A stretch of DNA of 41,223 bases from positions 1 through 41,223 of the forward strand of contig JBBKAW010000044.1 in the NCBI GenBank assembly GCA_037722135.1, read 5' to 3'. The position numbers and the translations under genes were made by a program. Of this stretch, positions 31,410-38,941 are shown one piece after another. The stretch is from Aquificaceae bacterium (GTDB lineage Bacteria; Aquificota; Aquificia; Aquificales; Aquificaceae). The notes below the pieces were generated by a model, which searched no databases, had not been told where the DNA came from, and saw nothing but the letters and a program-made list of their open reading frames with translations. Each line of letters opens with the position of its first letter. The first letter of the stretch is position 1.

Positions 31410-32683
31410 GCTCCTAATTTTACTTGCTTTCTGTATTTTTCCCATTCTTGTGGAAACTTCTGCATAGCTTGACGAATTAGCCTACCTGCAACTGCACCAA
31501 GACCACAGATAGAAGTGGGCTGTATGTGTGAGTTCACAAACTCAAAGCCTACCCATTCTCTTTCATCCGCTTCGTAGTGCACTATCTTCTCAAGGAGATT
31601 AGCCTGTTCATAAGTGCCAACCCTACAGGGCGTGCATTGACCACAGCTCTCATGAGCGTAAAACTCTGCTACCCACAGGCAAGCTTGGACTATATCGTCT
31701 TCTTCTGTCAGGACTATAACCGTTCCCGTCCCGCCAAAGCCAAAGGGCGAGTAGTCCATGGGTGTGTCTAACTCCTCTGCGGAAAAACAGTCAAGGGCTC
31801 CGGAGAATACTGCCTTAATCTTCTTGTTTCCAATAGTTCCTCCCGCATACTTGAAGATAACTTCTCTGAGGGTGGTGTTCATGGGGAGCTCATAGACCCC
31901 TGGCTTTTTCACTTTTCCACTTACAGGAAAGAGCTTGGGACCCGGATAGTCGCTTGGTCCTATGTAGCGATACTCTTCCCAACCCATACCCACTATGAGA
32001 GGAATGTTGCAAAGGGTTTCCACGTTGTTTACCACAGTAGGTCTTCCCCAAAGACCATATTGAACAGGAAAGGGTGGTTTTATCCTTGGAAAGCCTCTCT
32101 TACCTTCAAGAGATTCAATGAGTGCACTCTCTTCTCCGCATATGTAGGCACCTGCACCTCTTGCCACATAAATCTCAAGGTCAAAGCCAGAGCCCAGTAT
32201 GTTTTTCCCAAGAAAACCCTTCTTCTTTGCCTCCTCTATGGCATCCCTGAGGATATAGTATCCCGCAGGATACTCACCCCTTATGTATATGAAAGCCTCA
32301 TTTGCCCCTATGGCGTAGGCAGAGATTATCATACCTTCTATGAGAAGGTGTGGGTCTCTTTCTATGAGTATTCTGTCCTTGAAGGTGCCGGGTTCAGATT
32401 CGTCCGCATTGCATATGAGATATCTCGGTGCTGGGTTTTGAACCGCAAACTTCCACTTTCTACCTGTGGGAAAGCCTGCACCTCCTCTGCCCCTGAGCTG
32501 GCTTTTGTCCACCCAGTCTATTATCTCCTCAGGTTTCATGTTAAGTGCTTTTTCCAAAGCCTGATAGCCACCGTCTTTTAGATAATCCTCTATGGTGTGA
32601 ACTCTTGGCTTTTTAGCCCTTTTTAACAAAAGGTTAAGCGTTGTTTCTGCGTATATTTCAGGTATAACGGGATAGGATCTCAT
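31406..32683 (-). CDS. nuoF: NADH-quinone oxidoreductase subunit F (NuoF-type)
   Basis: Binds NADH, FMN and the N3 [4Fe-4S] cluster at the tip of the complex I arm. 425 residues from ATG 32683, which has a GGAG seven bases upstream; an in-frame TTG at 32704 is less likely. Motifs: GRGGAGFPTGRKW (FMN/NADH), GEESALIESLEGKRGFPR (NADH), and SCGQCTPCR plus a later Cys in TSICGLGAVAG for the cluster. Only nuoE accompanies it, so the rest of complex I must be elsewhere. A soluble NAD-linked hydrogenase or formate dehydrogenase module is an alternative. The 5' end overlaps nuoE by 26 bases. Confidence 0.93.
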   Translation of the reverse strand: MRSYPVIPEIYAETTLNLLLKRAKKPRVHTIEDYLKDGGYQALEKALNMKPEEIIDWVDKSQLRGRGGAGFPTGRKWKFAVQNPAPRYLICNADESEPGTFKDRILIERDPHLLIEGMIISAYAIGANEAFIYIRGEYPAGYYILRDAIEEAKKKGFLGKNILGSGFDLEIYVARGAGAYICGEESALIESLEGKRGFPRIKPPFPVQYGLWGRPTVVNNVETLCNIPLIVGMGWEEYRYIGPSDYPGPKLFPVSGKVKKPGVYELPMNTTLREVIFKYAGGTIGNKKIKAVFSGALDCFSAEELDTPMDYSPFGFGGTGTVIVLTEEDDIVQACLWVAEFYAHESCGQCTPCRVGTYEQANLLEKIVHYEADEREWVGFEFVNSHIQPTSICGLGAVAGRLIRQAMQKFPQEWEKYRKQVKLGA

Positions 32684-33128
32684 GTAGCTTCTCCTTTGAT
32701 TCAAATTTATAGGTGTCGTTATCTACCATGAAACAAGGTGCCTCTGAGCATGCACCTATGCATTGCACCCCTATGAGCTTAAACCTTCCATCCCTTGTGG
32801 TCTCACCTAAGGAGATGCCAAGTAGCTCCCTTAAGGCATTTAGCACCTTGTTAGAGTTCATAAGATTACACACAACGCTTACACAAACCCTTATCCTATG
32901 TCTTGCAGGTTCTCCCCTGTCAAACATATCGTAGAAGGAGACCACATTTTCCACGTGGCTTAGTGGCACTTCCAAGAGTTTTGCCACCTCCTCCAAGGCA
33001 AAAAAGGGTATATGTCCGTAGTAGTCTTGGACTTCATGGAGACAAAGCAACACCGCCTGTTCCTTTCTTGGAAAATACTCCACATGTTCCCTTAGCTTTT
33101 CCATTAGTTCCTGTGGCAAGACACTCAT
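32658..33128 (-). CDS. nuoE: NADH-quinone oxidoreductase subunit E (NuoE-type)
   Basis: A 156-residue thioredoxin-fold [2Fe-2S] protein that pairs with NuoF. Cluster Cys are in CVSVVC (C-x4-C) and CIGAC (C-x3-C). The N-terminal helical domain (residues 1-75, KEQAVLLCLHEVQDYYGHIP) is standard. The ATG shares a base with the mqnD stop (TAATG). Confidence 0.93.
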   Translation of the reverse strand: MSVLPQELMEKLREHVEYFPRKEQAVLLCLHEVQDYYGHIPFFALEEVAKLLEVPLSHVENVVSFYDMFDRGEPARHRIRVCVSVVCNLMNSNKVLNALRELLGISLGETTRDGRFKLIGVQCIGACSEAPCFMVDNDTYKFESKEKLHEILSRYT

Positions 33129-33970
33129 TAGTCTTTCACCTCGTCGCTGAATATCACTTCTGGCATATTAGCTTCTATTATATTCCTTTCTATTCCCATC
33201 TGTAGCAAAAGTCTTACCGCACGCCTGCCATCCTCTCCATAATCTAAGGTTCTGTGGTTTACATACATGCTTACAAACCTGTTGGTTCTTTCTGTGTCTT
33301 CTTTTATATCCCTTGCATACTCTCTGGCAAAGCTTAGGGCTTCTTCCCTATGCTGTAATGCATACTCTATACTCCTTCTCATTAACCTCTCCATCTTCCT
33401 TATTATCTCAACACCGAGGTCTTTTCTTATAATATTGCCACCAAGAGGAAGCACAAGATTGGTCTTCTCCATCCACCATTGACCCAGGTCAACAACCTTT
33501 TTTAGACCCCTATCTTGATAACTAAGCTGTCCTTCATGTATAACAAGCCCTGCGTCCACTATACCCTCCGCAACCGCATCTAAGACCTTGTCAAAAGGGA
33601 AAAGGACTTCCTCGAAGTCTGGTTCGTAGAGCTTTAGGACAAGATATGCAGTGGTAAGCCTTCCTGGAATTGCGACCCTTTTACCCCTTAAGTCTTCTAA
33701 ATGCTCCTTGGCGACCACTATAGGTCCGTAGCCTTCTCCCACACTTCCACCACTGGGTAGCACCAGATATTTGTCTGCCACATAAGGATAGGCATGAAAG
33801 GATATGGCGGAGACCTCATAAGTCCCTTTTAGAGCTTCCCTATTAAGGGTTTCAATGTCCGCAAGCACATGCTCAATCTCCAAACCCTCTGTGTCTATCT
33901 TGCCAGCGGTCAGAGCATAAAACATAAAGGCATCGTCCGAGTCAGGGCTGTGGGCTATCCTTATCCTCAT
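33128..33970 (-). CDS. mqnD: 1,4-dihydroxy-6-naphthoate synthase (futalosine pathway)
   Basis: Converts cyclic de-hypoxanthinyl futalosine to 1,4-dihydroxy-6-naphthoate in menaquinone synthesis. 280 residues of periplasmic-binding-protein fold. [14 protein letters not shown] (8-21) is the family N-terminal signature and [10 protein letters not shown] includes the catalytic His. It is closest to MqnD; the related MqnA is the main alternative and differs in the N-terminal motif. This shows menaquinone is made by the futalosine route, as known in Aquificales. AAGGAG precedes the ATG, and the start overlaps lpxD by 29 bases. Confidence 0.88.
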
Positions 33971-34940
33971 GCCTTTTCTCCTTAAAGAGTTCTGGCAGTT
34001 TTAAAATATAGGCGTAAATTCTTTTCCATTTAGACCACTCCATAGCTGGAATACTTCCACCGTATACCTTTCCACCTTCAAGGCTCTTTGATACCCCCGC
34101 CTTTGCAGATACAACAGCACCATCTCCTATCTCCACATGGTCTGCCACACCCACCTGTCCTGCCAAGACTACTCCCTTGCCTGTCCTTACACTACCAGAA
34201 AGTCCCACTTGGGACACTATAATATTACCCTCACCTATCTTGCAGTTGTGTCCTATCTGCACCAAGTTATCTATCTTGGTATTTTCGCCTATAATTGTCT
34301 GGTCTATAAGAGCCCTATCTATGCAGGTGTTTGCACCTATCTCCACACGGTCTTGGATGACTACTTTACCTATGTGGTTTAGCTTAAAAACGCCCTCTGG
34401 ACCCACATAGTAGCCAAAGCCGTCCGCACCTATAACAGAACCACTATGAATCCTCACACCCTCACCTATCACACAGTAGGGATACACATGAACTCCGCTG
34501 AAAAGCACGCTGTTTTTGCCTATCCTCACACCTTCCCCTATGTAGCAAAAGGGATAAACCTTTACCCCATCCTCAAGCACCACATTCTTCCCCAAATAAA
34601 CGAAGGGTGCCACATACACATCCTTCCCTAACTTTACACCCTCTTCTATGTAAGCCTTATCGGATATGCCAGAGGGATGTCTCTCTTGGTAGAAGTAAGA
34701 CAAAAAGCGTGCAAGGGCAAGCCTCACGTTTTTAACCCTTATGTATGTGGGAAAGTCAATGCTCTGAGATACCACTGGGACTATTTGCATACCCTTTAAA
34801 TCCTCCAAAACCTTTACGTCTTGCAGAAAGACAAGCGTCCCCTTTTTTGGATTTTCTGGTGATGATATACCCTCTACCTCCATATGAGGGTTTCCAACAA
34901 CTTCACCCTCTAAAAGCTTTGCAAGGTCTAAGAGCTTCAT
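33942..34940 (-). CDS. lpxD: UDP-3-O-acylglucosamine N-acyltransferase
   Basis: Third step of lipid A synthesis, which implies an LPS-bearing outer membrane. 332 residues: N-terminal uridine-binding domain (1-100), then left-handed beta-helix hexapeptide repeats (about 105-290, e.g. [16 protein letters not shown]) with the catalytic His in [14 protein letters not shown]. The C-terminal helix with [14 protein letters not shown] is present. It overlaps ompH by four bases; the ompH-lpxD order is common in Gram-negatives. Confidence 0.95.
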
Positions 34941-35422
34941 CTTTGCTGGTCTAACCTTTGGATTACCTCCGCAGTTATGTCTATCTCCGCAGACCTGTAT
35001 ATGAATACAGTGCAGTCAATAACACCTGTAAAGCCTTCCCTCTTTGCTATGTCTTCGGATATTTTCCTTACTCTTGATACTATCTCTCCTTCTAACTTTT
35101 CCCTCATCTCCGCAATTTCTCTTTGTGCCTTTTGCTGTAGTTCTATTCCTTCAGCTTCCACTCTCTGATATTCCCTTATCCTCTGTTCTCTTACATTTTG
35201 AGCTATTCCCCTGCTTTCTATCTGTTTTCGAAGGTCTTCAAGCCTCTTGTTTATCTGGTCAAGCTGTTTTTGATACTCTTCCACTTTGGCTCTTAGCTGA
35301 GATTCCTTGTCCTTTACAAGCTGGGATTCTGAAAGAATCCTATTTGGGTCAATGCAAGCAAACTTTTGCTGGGCAAAGCTAAAACCAGAAAAGAGGGCAA
35401 CTACAAGAAGAGCTTTTTTCAT
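34937..35422 (-). CDS. OmpH/Skp-like periplasmic chaperone
   Basis: Holds unfolded outer-membrane proteins in the periplasm. 161 residues from ATG 35422, chosen because AGGAGG is eight bases upstream; in-frame Mets at 35428 and further up are too near or before the site. Signal peptide [18 protein letters not shown] (cleaved after SFA). The mature part has the jellyfish-like long coiled coil (about 40-130; [18 protein letters not shown]) and a short beta core. It is followed directly by lpxD. Confidence 0.88.
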
Positions 35423-35458
35423 AACCATAACCTCCTTACTAAAAAGCATACCACTAAA

Positions 35459-35704
35459 TTAGGCAGACGTGTAAAGTTTTGAATGGAACTCTCCGTATCT
35501 TTTGTCTACCCTACCCACATGACCATAAAGCCATCCTGTAAGTATTGCTAAGGCTTGTCTTGCCTGCTTTTTATCCTGCATCTCCTTATCCAATTTGGTA
35601 AAAAGGTTTGCAAGAGTGTTTATCCTGTCCACTATGCCTTGATGCTGGTCATCCATTTCCTTTACGCCCGTATACAAGTCTGGAGTAAGCTCCATATACC
35701 TCAT
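35459..35704 (-). CDS. Mini haemerythrin-like protein with helices A and D joined
   Basis: 81 residues with an AAGGAG before the ATG. The first half matches helix A of bacteriohaemerythrins (YTGVKEMDDQHQGIVDRIN; H21 is the helix-A ligand). The second half matches helix D (GWLYGHVGRVDKRYG; H62-x4-D67 equals the H117/D122 pair of the Methylococcus protein). Helices B and C with the HxxxE and HxxxH ligands are absent, so only three of seven iron ligands remain. Normal length is about 130. A clean open frame with its own ribosome site suggests a kept gene, not recent decay. A dimer could rebuild a four-helix bundle (inference). It sits between clpX and ompH. Confidence 0.7.
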   Translation of the reverse strand: MRYMELTPDLYTGVKEMDDQHQGIVDRINTLANLFTKLDKEMQDKKQARQALAILTGWLYGHVGRVDKRYGEFHSKLYTSA

Positions 35705-35716
35705 GACTCATCTCCT

Positions 35717-36955
35717 TTATACCGCTTCTTTCATTATGTATATAGGCTTTAGCTTGTCTTTTACTACTTGTGCATTTACAAGCACCTTTTTCACATCACG
35801 CTTAGAGGGTATTTCAAACATCACATCAAGCATTATCTCTTCCATGATAGCCCTAAGACCTCTTGCACCAGTTTTCCGTCTTATAGCTTCTCTTGCTATT
35901 TCCACCAGTGCATCCTCTGTAAACTCAAGTTCTACACCTTCCATTTCAAAAAGCTTCTTATACTGCTTAACAAGTGCATTTCTTGGTTCAACAAGCACCC
36001 TTATTAGCTCTTCCTCTGTTAGCTCATCAAGGACCGCAATTACAGGAAGCCTGCCCACAAACTCTGGTATGAGCCCATAGTGTATAAGGTCATCTACTTC
36101 CACAAAGTGGAGTGGGTTTTCTCCCTTGTCAAACTTTCTTATCTCCGCCTCAAAGCCTACCACAGACTTTCCAAGTCTTCTTTTTATTATGTCTTCAAGC
36201 CCCACAAAGGCACCACCGCAGATAAAGAGAATGTCTGTGGTGTCTACCTGTATGAACTCTTGGTGAGGGTGCTTTCTTCCTCCCTGTGGTGGCACGTTGG
36301 AGATGGTCCCCTCTATTATCTTCAAGAGGGCTTGTTGAACGCCTTCGCCAGAAACGTCTCTCGTTATAGAAGGGTTTATACCTGTCTTTTTTGCTATCTT
36401 GTCTATTTCGTCTATGTATACAATGCCTCTTTGTGCAGCTTTTACGTCATATCCGCAATTTTGCAAAAGCCTTACAAGGACGTTTTCCACATCCTCACCC
36501 ACATAGCCTGCTTCTGTAAGGGTGGTTGCATCGGATATGGCAAAGGGCACGTCTAATATCTTTGCCAGAGTCTTTGCCAGTAGAGTTTTTCCAGAGCCAG
36601 TGGGACCTATCAGTAATATATTGCTTTTTTCCACTTCCACGTCGTCAAGATTGAGACCGAGTTCCTTCGCCCTTATTCTCTTGTAGTGATTGTATACCGC
36701 CACAGAGAGAACCTTTTTGGCTCTTTCTTGACCTATAACATATTGGTCAAGCTGTCTCTTTATTTCTTCAGGTGTTGGAATTTCCCTTGAAAAGCTGTAG
36801 CTGAGGTGCTTTTTCTGCTCCTTTATTATGTTGTTGCATACCTCTACACACCGGTCGCATATAAAGGTGTCGTTTGGTCCTGCTATCAGCACCAAAACTT
36901 CGCTCTGAGACCTTCCACAAAAAGAGCAGTGGTTTACTTGCCTTTTCCTTGACAT
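35717..36955 (-). CDS. clpX: ATP-dependent Clp protease ATP-binding subunit ClpX
   Basis: AAA+ unfoldase that feeds ClpP. 412 residues: N-terminal zinc domain (CSFC and CDRC, residues 9-37), Walker A GPTGSGKT, Walker [11 protein letters not shown], pore loop GYVGED, and the [14 protein letters not shown] sensor-2 region. A ClpP-binding IGF-type loop should follow Walker B; here [14 protein letters not shown] carries VGF. It starts one base after clpP, in the standard tig-clpP-clpX order. Confidence 0.97.
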
Positions 36956-36956
36956 T

Positions 36957-37553
36957 TTAGCTCCTTTTTTCTATAACTTTGTCCACTATACCGTATTCCA
37001 TAGCCTCATATGCGGACATAAAATAGTCCCTTTCCACATCCCTTTCTATCTTCTCTAAGGGCTGTCCTGTGTGTTTTGCAAGGATTTCATTGAGCATGTT
37101 CTTTATCCTTCTTATCTCCTCCGCATGGATTATTATATCCGTTGCTTGACCCGATATGCCTCCGAGAGGTTGGTGTATCATTATCCTTGCGTGAGGCAGT
37201 GCATATCTTTTACCCTTTGCACCCGCAGCGAGCAAAACCGCACCCATAGATGCTGCTTGACCAAGGCATATGGTAACCACGTCAGGCTTTATGTATTGCA
37301 TGGTGTCGTATATTGCCATGCCTGCAGTGACAGACCCACCGGGTGAGTTTATATACATGTATATGTCCTTTTCTGGGTCTTGAGCTTCAAGAAAAAGAAG
37401 CTGAGCAACAATGAGGTTAGCCACATGGTCATCTATGGGGAAACCGAGCAAAACTATTCTATCTTGCAGGAGCCTTGAGTATATATCGTAAGCCCTTTCA
37501 CCTCTCGGAGTTTGCTCAATTACTATAGGAACAAGCTGGTCAAGTATTCTCAT
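36957..37553 (-). CDS. clpP: ATP-dependent Clp protease proteolytic subunit ClpP
   Basis: Serine protease barrel. 198 residues with the catalytic Ser in [16 protein letters not shown], His in [14 protein letters not shown], and Asp later in the [15 protein letters not shown] region. The N-terminal propeptide is short. It overlaps the end of tig by 14 bases. Confidence 0.97.
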
Positions 37554-38835
37554 TTTTCTCCTCCTTCTTCTCTTCTATCTCCTTTACTACCGCCTTTGAA
37601 ATTATGTCTTCAAACGCCTTTTCTCTCTTTATGTCCTCCTCAAGGACTGGCAGTAGGTTTTCCCTTTCCAAAAACTCCCTCATTTCTTCTGCCGTGCGTT
37701 CATAAGCTTGTGCCAAGGCTTCTATCCTTTGCTGGATTTCTTCATTGCTAACCTCTATGTTTTTTTGTTGAGCGTATTTATCTAAGATGTATCTTAGCTT
37801 TATGTTAAAGACCGCTTGTGGTGTTAGCTCTTGAGCTATAGCTCTGTAATCCAGATACTTAGGGTCTATACCCCATTGAGATAGCTCCCTTACCCTTCTT
37901 TCCACAAGGTGTGATAGCTCCCTTTGAAGGAGTGTTTGAGGTATCTCAAACTCGTGGAGCTGAACTAACTTTATGGCTACCGCATCCGATATCATAGCCT
38001 TTTTTAAGTTTTCTAAGTTGGCTTTTACCTCTTGCCTTATCTTCTCCTCCGCTTCTGTCCAGGTCTCACCAAGTCCGAGCTCCTTCGCAAAGTCATCGTT
38101 TAACTCTGGAAGCACTTTTTCCTTTACACTCTTCACGGTGATTTCTACCCTTGCCTTTCCAGCGGGTTTACCTTCCACATCGTAAAGGGTTAAATCCTCA
38201 AGCACAAAGCTATCGCCTTCCCTTTTGCCTATAAGCTCCTTCTCTATCTCTTCCCTAAAGGTCTTTGTGCCGATAACTCCAGAAGTTTCTCCTTCTGTGG
38301 ATTCTCCACTCTCTAACTCTTGAACCTTGTATTCCACAACTACTAAGTCTCCTTCCTTTACCTCTCTTTCCACGGGTTCCCAAACTACGTGCTCTTGCCT
38401 TATTTCCTCTATCCTCTGCTTTACGAGGTCTTCACTGAACTCAAGCTTTTTTATCTCCACCTCAAGACCTTCTACTTTTTGCAATTCAAACTCAGGAGGC
38501 ACTTCAAAGTATACGCTGTAGCTTAGTCTTTGCTCTTTTTCTTCTAACTCCACCTTTTCAAGGTATATGTCCGCCACAGGCTTTAGTCCACTTGCTTGTA
38601 TTGCACTTGCCAAAGTGGCGTTTGCTACCTTTTTACCTACCTCTTCTTTTATGTATTCCCTAAACTTGGCTCTTATAATCCAAAGGGGTGCTTTACCTTT
38701 TCTAAAGCCTTCCACTTCCGCATTCTCTTTAAGGTAGTTGTATACCTCATCAAGTGCGGACTTTACCACATCACCTTCCACTTCCACTTTAAGGTTTTTA
38801 AAAAGTCCTTGTCTATCCTCTACGCTTACCTTCAT
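37540..38835 (-). CDS. tig: Trigger factor
   Basis: Ribosome-bound chaperone with peptidyl-prolyl isomerase activity. 431 residues from ATG 38835, five bases after GGAGG; an in-frame GTG at 38841 is within that site. N-terminal ribosome-binding domain with [15 protein letters not shown] (the usual GFRxGKxP signature), central FKBP-like PPIase domain (about 155-240), C-terminal helical arms. It begins 19 bases after the tRNA-Leu gene and is probably co-transcribed with it. Confidence 0.95.
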
Positions 38836-38854
38836 ACACACCTCCTATTTTTTT

Positions 38855-38941
38855 TGGTGCGGGTGGAGGGAGTCGAACCCTCACGGGCGTAAGCCCACAG
38901 GATCCTAAGTCCTGCGCGTCTGCCAGTTCCGCCACACCCGC
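38855..38941 (-). tRNA. tRNA-Leu (anticodon UAG)
   Basis: An 87-base cloverleaf on the minus strand with the 3' CCA encoded. The acceptor pairs GCGGGTG with CACCCGC, the discriminator is A, the anticodon loop is CTTAGGA flanked by GCAGGA/TCCTGT, and the T-loop is GGTTCGACTCC. The long variable arm with its own stem (GGGC TTAC GCCC) marks a class II tRNA. Anticodon UAG reads CUN Leu codons. It lies 13 bases after a TATAAT and 19 bases before tig, so it heads the tig-clpP-clpX operon. Confidence 0.96.

Follow-up and report, generated by a model that had tools for sequence, protein, structure and literature searches.

Di-iron four-helix bundles have often been proposed to derive from duplicated two-helix hairpins, and to our knowledge natural intermediates between such hairpins and the bundles are scarce. 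The Due Ferri designed proteins are helix-loop-helix dimers with a di-metal site. Encapsulated ferritin (EncFtn) has two-helix subunits, which associate into a four-helix bundle and create a symmetric di-iron site where the two partners of the dimer meet (PMC5012862). With respect to the haemerythrins, a survey of the family noted four sequences that 'lack a helical segment', and in one of its two search routes it dropped sequences under 100 amino acids (PMC2556348). These sequences are a precedent for the loss of a helix, and the available sections of the survey describe neither the architecture reported below nor its maintenance by selection. Our literature search, which covered open papers, retrieved no two-helix haemerythrin and no such form kept by selection.

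The window analysed here is a stretch of 41,223 nucleotides from an Aquificaceae bacterium (contig JBBKAW010000044.1, positions 1 to 41,223; genome G000 in the following). It contains a short haemerythrin-like gene, termed mini-haemerythrin or mini, in the following arrangement:

35459 to 35704, minus strand: mini-haemerythrin gene, 81 codons plus stop, with the ATG at 35704 and the TAA ending at 35459
35712 to 35716, minus strand: ribosome-binding site AGGAG, recognised from the sequence
35717 to 36955, minus strand: clpX, upstream of the mini gene, with AAA_2 and ClpX zinc finger domains
34937 to 35449, minus strand: ompH/skp-like gene, downstream of the mini gene (PF03938, E 1.4e-25)

The first-pass annotation had described an intact 81-residue haemerythrin-like frame with a good ribosome site in the order clpX-this-ompH. 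All of this was borne out: the frame is intact on the minus strand (which had not been stated), the domains of both neighbours were confirmed, and the AGGAG is located 7 bases 5' of the ATG and directly 3' of the clpX stop codon. The same ribosome site is present in G013, a sister species from the same genus of hot-spring bacteria with a one-contig genome, and is degraded in a remnant of the gene in G006. Assembly error in the window was considered and ruled out, as the one-contig genome of G013 carries the same gene. The secreted form of the ompH/skp-like product probably starts at 35422, and lpxD, named from its ORF sequence, follows 3' of this gene. A tRNA gene (38858-38941, minus strand) is located just 5' of the tig-clpP-clpX-mini-ompH-lpxD cluster. 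A search for RNA elements or terminators at the mini-haemerythrin locus gave nothing significant.

The mini product matches the NCBIfam bacteriohaemerythrin family with E = 8.1e-10, indicating homology beyond chance, and its scores stay under the curated full-length cut-offs, with 38.9 bits versus 84 for NF033749, 35 versus 51.75 for TIGR02481 and 21.3 versus 25.3 for the Pfam haemerythrin family (PF01814; E 4e-4). It shares with bacteriohaemerythrins a homologous helix A, back of helix C and helix D as well as the GW..H....DK.Y motif. As had been proposed from the sequence, the ligand-equivalent residues H21 (helix A), H62 and D67 (both helix D) are kept, and they align with ligand columns that are invariant across 10 full-length haemerythrins. 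Also correct was the claim that the helices carrying HxxxE and HxxxH are gone: helix B, which bears a His and a Glu ligand, is absent, as is the HxxxH motif from helix C, so that three of the seven ligands of the complete set (H, HxxxE, HxxxH, HxxxxD) are present by alignment and four are missing. With 81 residues and two predicted helices, in contrast to about 135 residues and four helices in the full-length family, the product would not form a single-chain four-helix bundle. All ten A and D residues that are invariant in the 10 full-length haemerythrins are retained, including not only the ligands but also W58, K68, Y70 and N29, while 13 of 26 less conserved (80–90%) columns are kept. The helix-A part is in addition weakly similar to proteins of 427–463 amino acids found in many Aquificaceae (L028, L029, L031, L032; E 0.005–0.09), a similarity which may be due to chance.

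The nearest full-length relative is the 135-residue haemerythrin of G011, an uncultured Aquificaceae MAG (L006 1480-1887, minus strand), which is 57–58% identical to mini in each half and possesses all ligand motifs. It served as the reference for the deletion, the parts of which are as follows:

35612 to 35704, minus strand: codons 1-31, front of helix A, 58% identical to G011 residues 1-31
35642 to 35644, minus strand: codon of H21, within the helix-A segment
35474 to 35611, minus strand: codons 32-77, back of helix C and helix D, 57% identical to G011 residues 85-130
35519 to 35521, minus strand: codon of H62, within the C/D segment
35504 to 35506, minus strand: codon of D67, within the C/D segment
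35606 to 35614, minus strand: junction region of the deletion, lacking 53 codons in frame, close to an LxL common to helices A and C of G011

The two matched halves directly adjoin in mini, but in G011 residues 32-84 lie between them. Mini thus lacks exactly 53 residues with the frame kept, namely the end of helix A, all of helix B and the ligand-bearing front of helix C. The junction of mini reads ATA AAC ACT CTT GCA AAC CTT TTT ACC AAA TTG, while in G011 helix A reads ATA AAC ... TTA GAC CTT and helix C reads TTA AAG CTT TTT ACC CAA TTA. From this comparison, the deletion connects helix A with the rear half of helix C at the LxL that both share. The first-pass annotation had spoken of helices A and D being fused; the front of A and all of D are indeed present, but the first helix is an A/C chimera. 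Within it, H21 occupies the position of full-length residue 74, one turn before H77, the first His of HxxxH. The hydrophobic directions of the A part and the C part differ by 34 degrees (at 100 degrees per residue) or by 6 degrees (heptad), from which it follows that the splice preserves the core face. Of 12 deletion lengths around 53, only 3 keep this face within 30 degrees. An unbroken 4-3 core pattern runs through the junction (M17, H21, I24, I28, L31, F35, L38, M42).

The G011 gene lies 3' of nadK instead of clpX, in a MAG that is 65% complete and from which no clpX was recovered, the sole match being a weaker relative. In a tree based on the columns of helices A and D, the minis of G000 and G013 group with G011 with support of 100/99, apart from the full-length haemerythrin of G000 itself. 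An origin of mini from this paralogue was therefore rejected. The paralogue is intact, has 134 residues (L003 1495-1899, equivalent to contig C49 3687-4091) and is flanked by a recN/endonuclease pair on one side and a macro-domain gene on the other; G013 and G006 have orthologues of it in the same position. In the order, haemerythrin genes look broken by frameshifts, stops or truncation in G017, G022 (L094), G056 (L083) and G042 (L095), suggesting frequent loss, and some of these cases could be assembly errors. The G017 member of the subfamily (L007, about 1270-1680) is a multiply broken pseudogene.

The short form that the earlier annotation had suggested seeking between clpX and ompH of related genomes does occur in G013, but clpX directly precedes ompH in 10 of the 11 other genus members with a readable locus. 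The remaining one, the next-nearest genome G006, has only a deleted remnant just after clpX (L035), of which the start ATGA..TACATGGAGCTTA.TCCA is recognisable and nearly all else is gone. No third mini copy was found among 136 genomes of the phylum, and none in plasmids or viral contigs; a wider search of genome contigs yielded only full-length or partial haemerythrin matches. The mini gene is a lineage-specific insert in an operon that is conserved in the genus. Since mini is absent or a remnant in most genus members, the argument for function that had been drawn from the conserved operon falls away, and the substitution pattern takes its place.

G000 and G013 are 91.1% identical in DNA over 15 kb, followed by G006 with 86–88% and G010 with about 80%. 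The 81-codon gene of G013 occupies the same locus, has the same junction and is 91% identical to that of G000 at the amino acid level. The deletion is hence at least as old as the 7.7% DNA divergence of the two copies. The earlier annotation had named a deletion confined to this genome, with full-length genes in close relatives, as a sign of recent decay; the closest relative, however, shares the deletion at this very locus, and its helices are conserved. The two copies are not separated by any indel or stop, and the ribosome sites are intact in both. In detail, 10 of the 19 changed codons are synonymous, on which two-sequence comparison the whole estimate of selection is based. The helices (codons 17-38 and 49-74) account for 9 synonymous and 0 amino acid changes, the ends and the turn for 1 synonymous and 9 amino acid changes. 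Under neutrality, nine synonymous changes out of nine in the helices would arise with a probability of roughly 1e-6 to 1e-5; comparing the helices with the ends and turn gives a Fisher p = 1.2e-4. As these helix limits were chosen after the data had been seen, the figures for the whole gene are safer: its dN/dS is 0.20 (NG86) to 0.34 (YN00), and so few amino acid changes arise in simulations with P of 0.004–0.04. The dN/dS of the neighbouring genes (0.05–0.15, NG86) is below the 0.20 of mini. We regard this pattern as strong evidence that the mini gene of G000 and G013 yields a translated product under purifying selection, in line with the retained short form proposed earlier. The synonymous divergence from G013 is uneven among the neighbouring genes (32658-35449 versus 35717-38841), with about 0.1 for ompH and up to 0.7 for tig, as if recombination had occurred.

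It is improbable that mini is a decaying gene in which the in-frame deletion killed a haemerythrin and the frame stayed intact by luck or because of its short age. Such decay would be compatible with the mere fragment at the G006 locus, the broken haemerythrins of the order including the multiply broken G017 subfamily member, and the longer branch of mini in the tree (0.53 versus 0.32 for its full-length relative). On the other hand, the deletion is older than the divergence of G000 and G013, which are 91% identical in DNA, and both frames, both ribosome sites and all helix residues have since remained intact without an indel, the helices accumulating synonymous changes only. The broken frames and the lack of purifying selection of a pseudogene are thus not seen in mini, which probably has a new job and is not dying.

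For the structure of the product, AlphaFold2 predicted a hairpin with helices 15-39 and 45-80 from 12 related rows (mean pLDDT 86.6, pTM 0.72) and a similar one with helices 8-41 and 46-79 from the single sequence (pLDDT 84.5). A structure unlike helices A and D, which the first-pass annotation had taken as a sign against its reading, was obtained in neither prediction; the mini product is predicted to be a helical hairpin in which the A/C chimeric helix is followed by helix D. H21 and H62 are on the core side, no more than about 60 degrees away from the hydrophobic face, and D67 is at about 90 degrees. A fold search of solved structures with this hairpin returned no significant match, only weak and unspecific hairpins, the best haemerythrin having an E of 2.2.

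The 53-codon deletion is shown by the sequence comparison; with regard to the order of events, we infer that a full-length gene like that of G011 was inserted between clpX and ompH in the ancestor of G000, G013 and G006. An in-frame deletion between short segments of similar sequence in the helices A and C would then have removed helix B and the front of C. The resulting mini gene has been kept by selection in G000 and G013 and lost in G006. In a thermophile, the exposed apolar face of the hairpin would be expected to lead to self-association or to the binding of a partner. The exposed heptad cores of two hairpins might pack as a homodimeric four-helix bundle, in which both turns would lie at the same end and the native haemerythrin topology would be restored. 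Two H21, two H62 and two D67 would then be brought to roughly the same level of the bundle, where they could form a symmetric di-metal site.

A hairpin made by deletion and kept by selection, most likely as a homodimer with a rebuilt metal site, is the best overall explanation of these data, and we put it forward tentatively, at somewhat less than an even chance. The specific claim that a half-size haemerythrin arising from one in-frame deletion rebuilds a homodimeric metal site of four His and two Asp is more doubtful, though a serious possibility. Points against the overall explanation are that mini is dispensable, given its loss in G006 and its absence from other members of the genus; that haemerythrin genes are broken fairly often in the order; and that the hairpin, with four of the seven iron ligands missing, has no significant match among solved structures.

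Nearly as likely as the homodimeric metal site is a metal-free hairpin that binds a partner, be it the full-length haemerythrin of the cell, a Clp component or some other protein. In that case the retained His and Asp would serve for packing or be leftovers. The loss of the ligands and the lack of an evident second metal-binding motif would be explained in this way, as would the conservation of invariant residues beyond the ligands; furthermore, G000 still encodes a full-length haemerythrin, and the ribosome site of mini directly follows clpX. However, H21, H62 and D67 are strictly retained, and the tie to Clp is one of gene position, with most relatives having a clpX that lacks this neighbour. 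The least probable of the alternatives, at slightly lower probability even than decay, is a self-paired hairpin with a structural zinc or no metal, providing stability or a scaffold in a thermophile; the amphipathic helices and the heptad continuing through the junction would suit it, but it overlaps with the preferred homodimer explanation.

If the homodimeric metal site is correct, evolution would here have run the proposed path from two hairpins to a four-helix di-metal bundle in reverse. A single traceable deletion reduced a known oxygen-binding protein of four helices to one of two, and the result is under selection. With the full-length G011 gene, the minis of two species and the G006 remnant available, it becomes testable whether half a haemerythrin can persist as a dimer and which metal chemistry it retains. 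The model for the proposed dimeric site is EncFtn, in which the subunit likewise has two helices; mini resembles it in that its subunit is predicted to be a hairpin whose ligands face the core. The proposed likeness is one of working: EncFtn differs in belonging to the ferritin superfamily, in its Glu/His ligands and in being an encapsulin cargo. The Due Ferri proteins have other ligands and are designed, whereas mini is natural.
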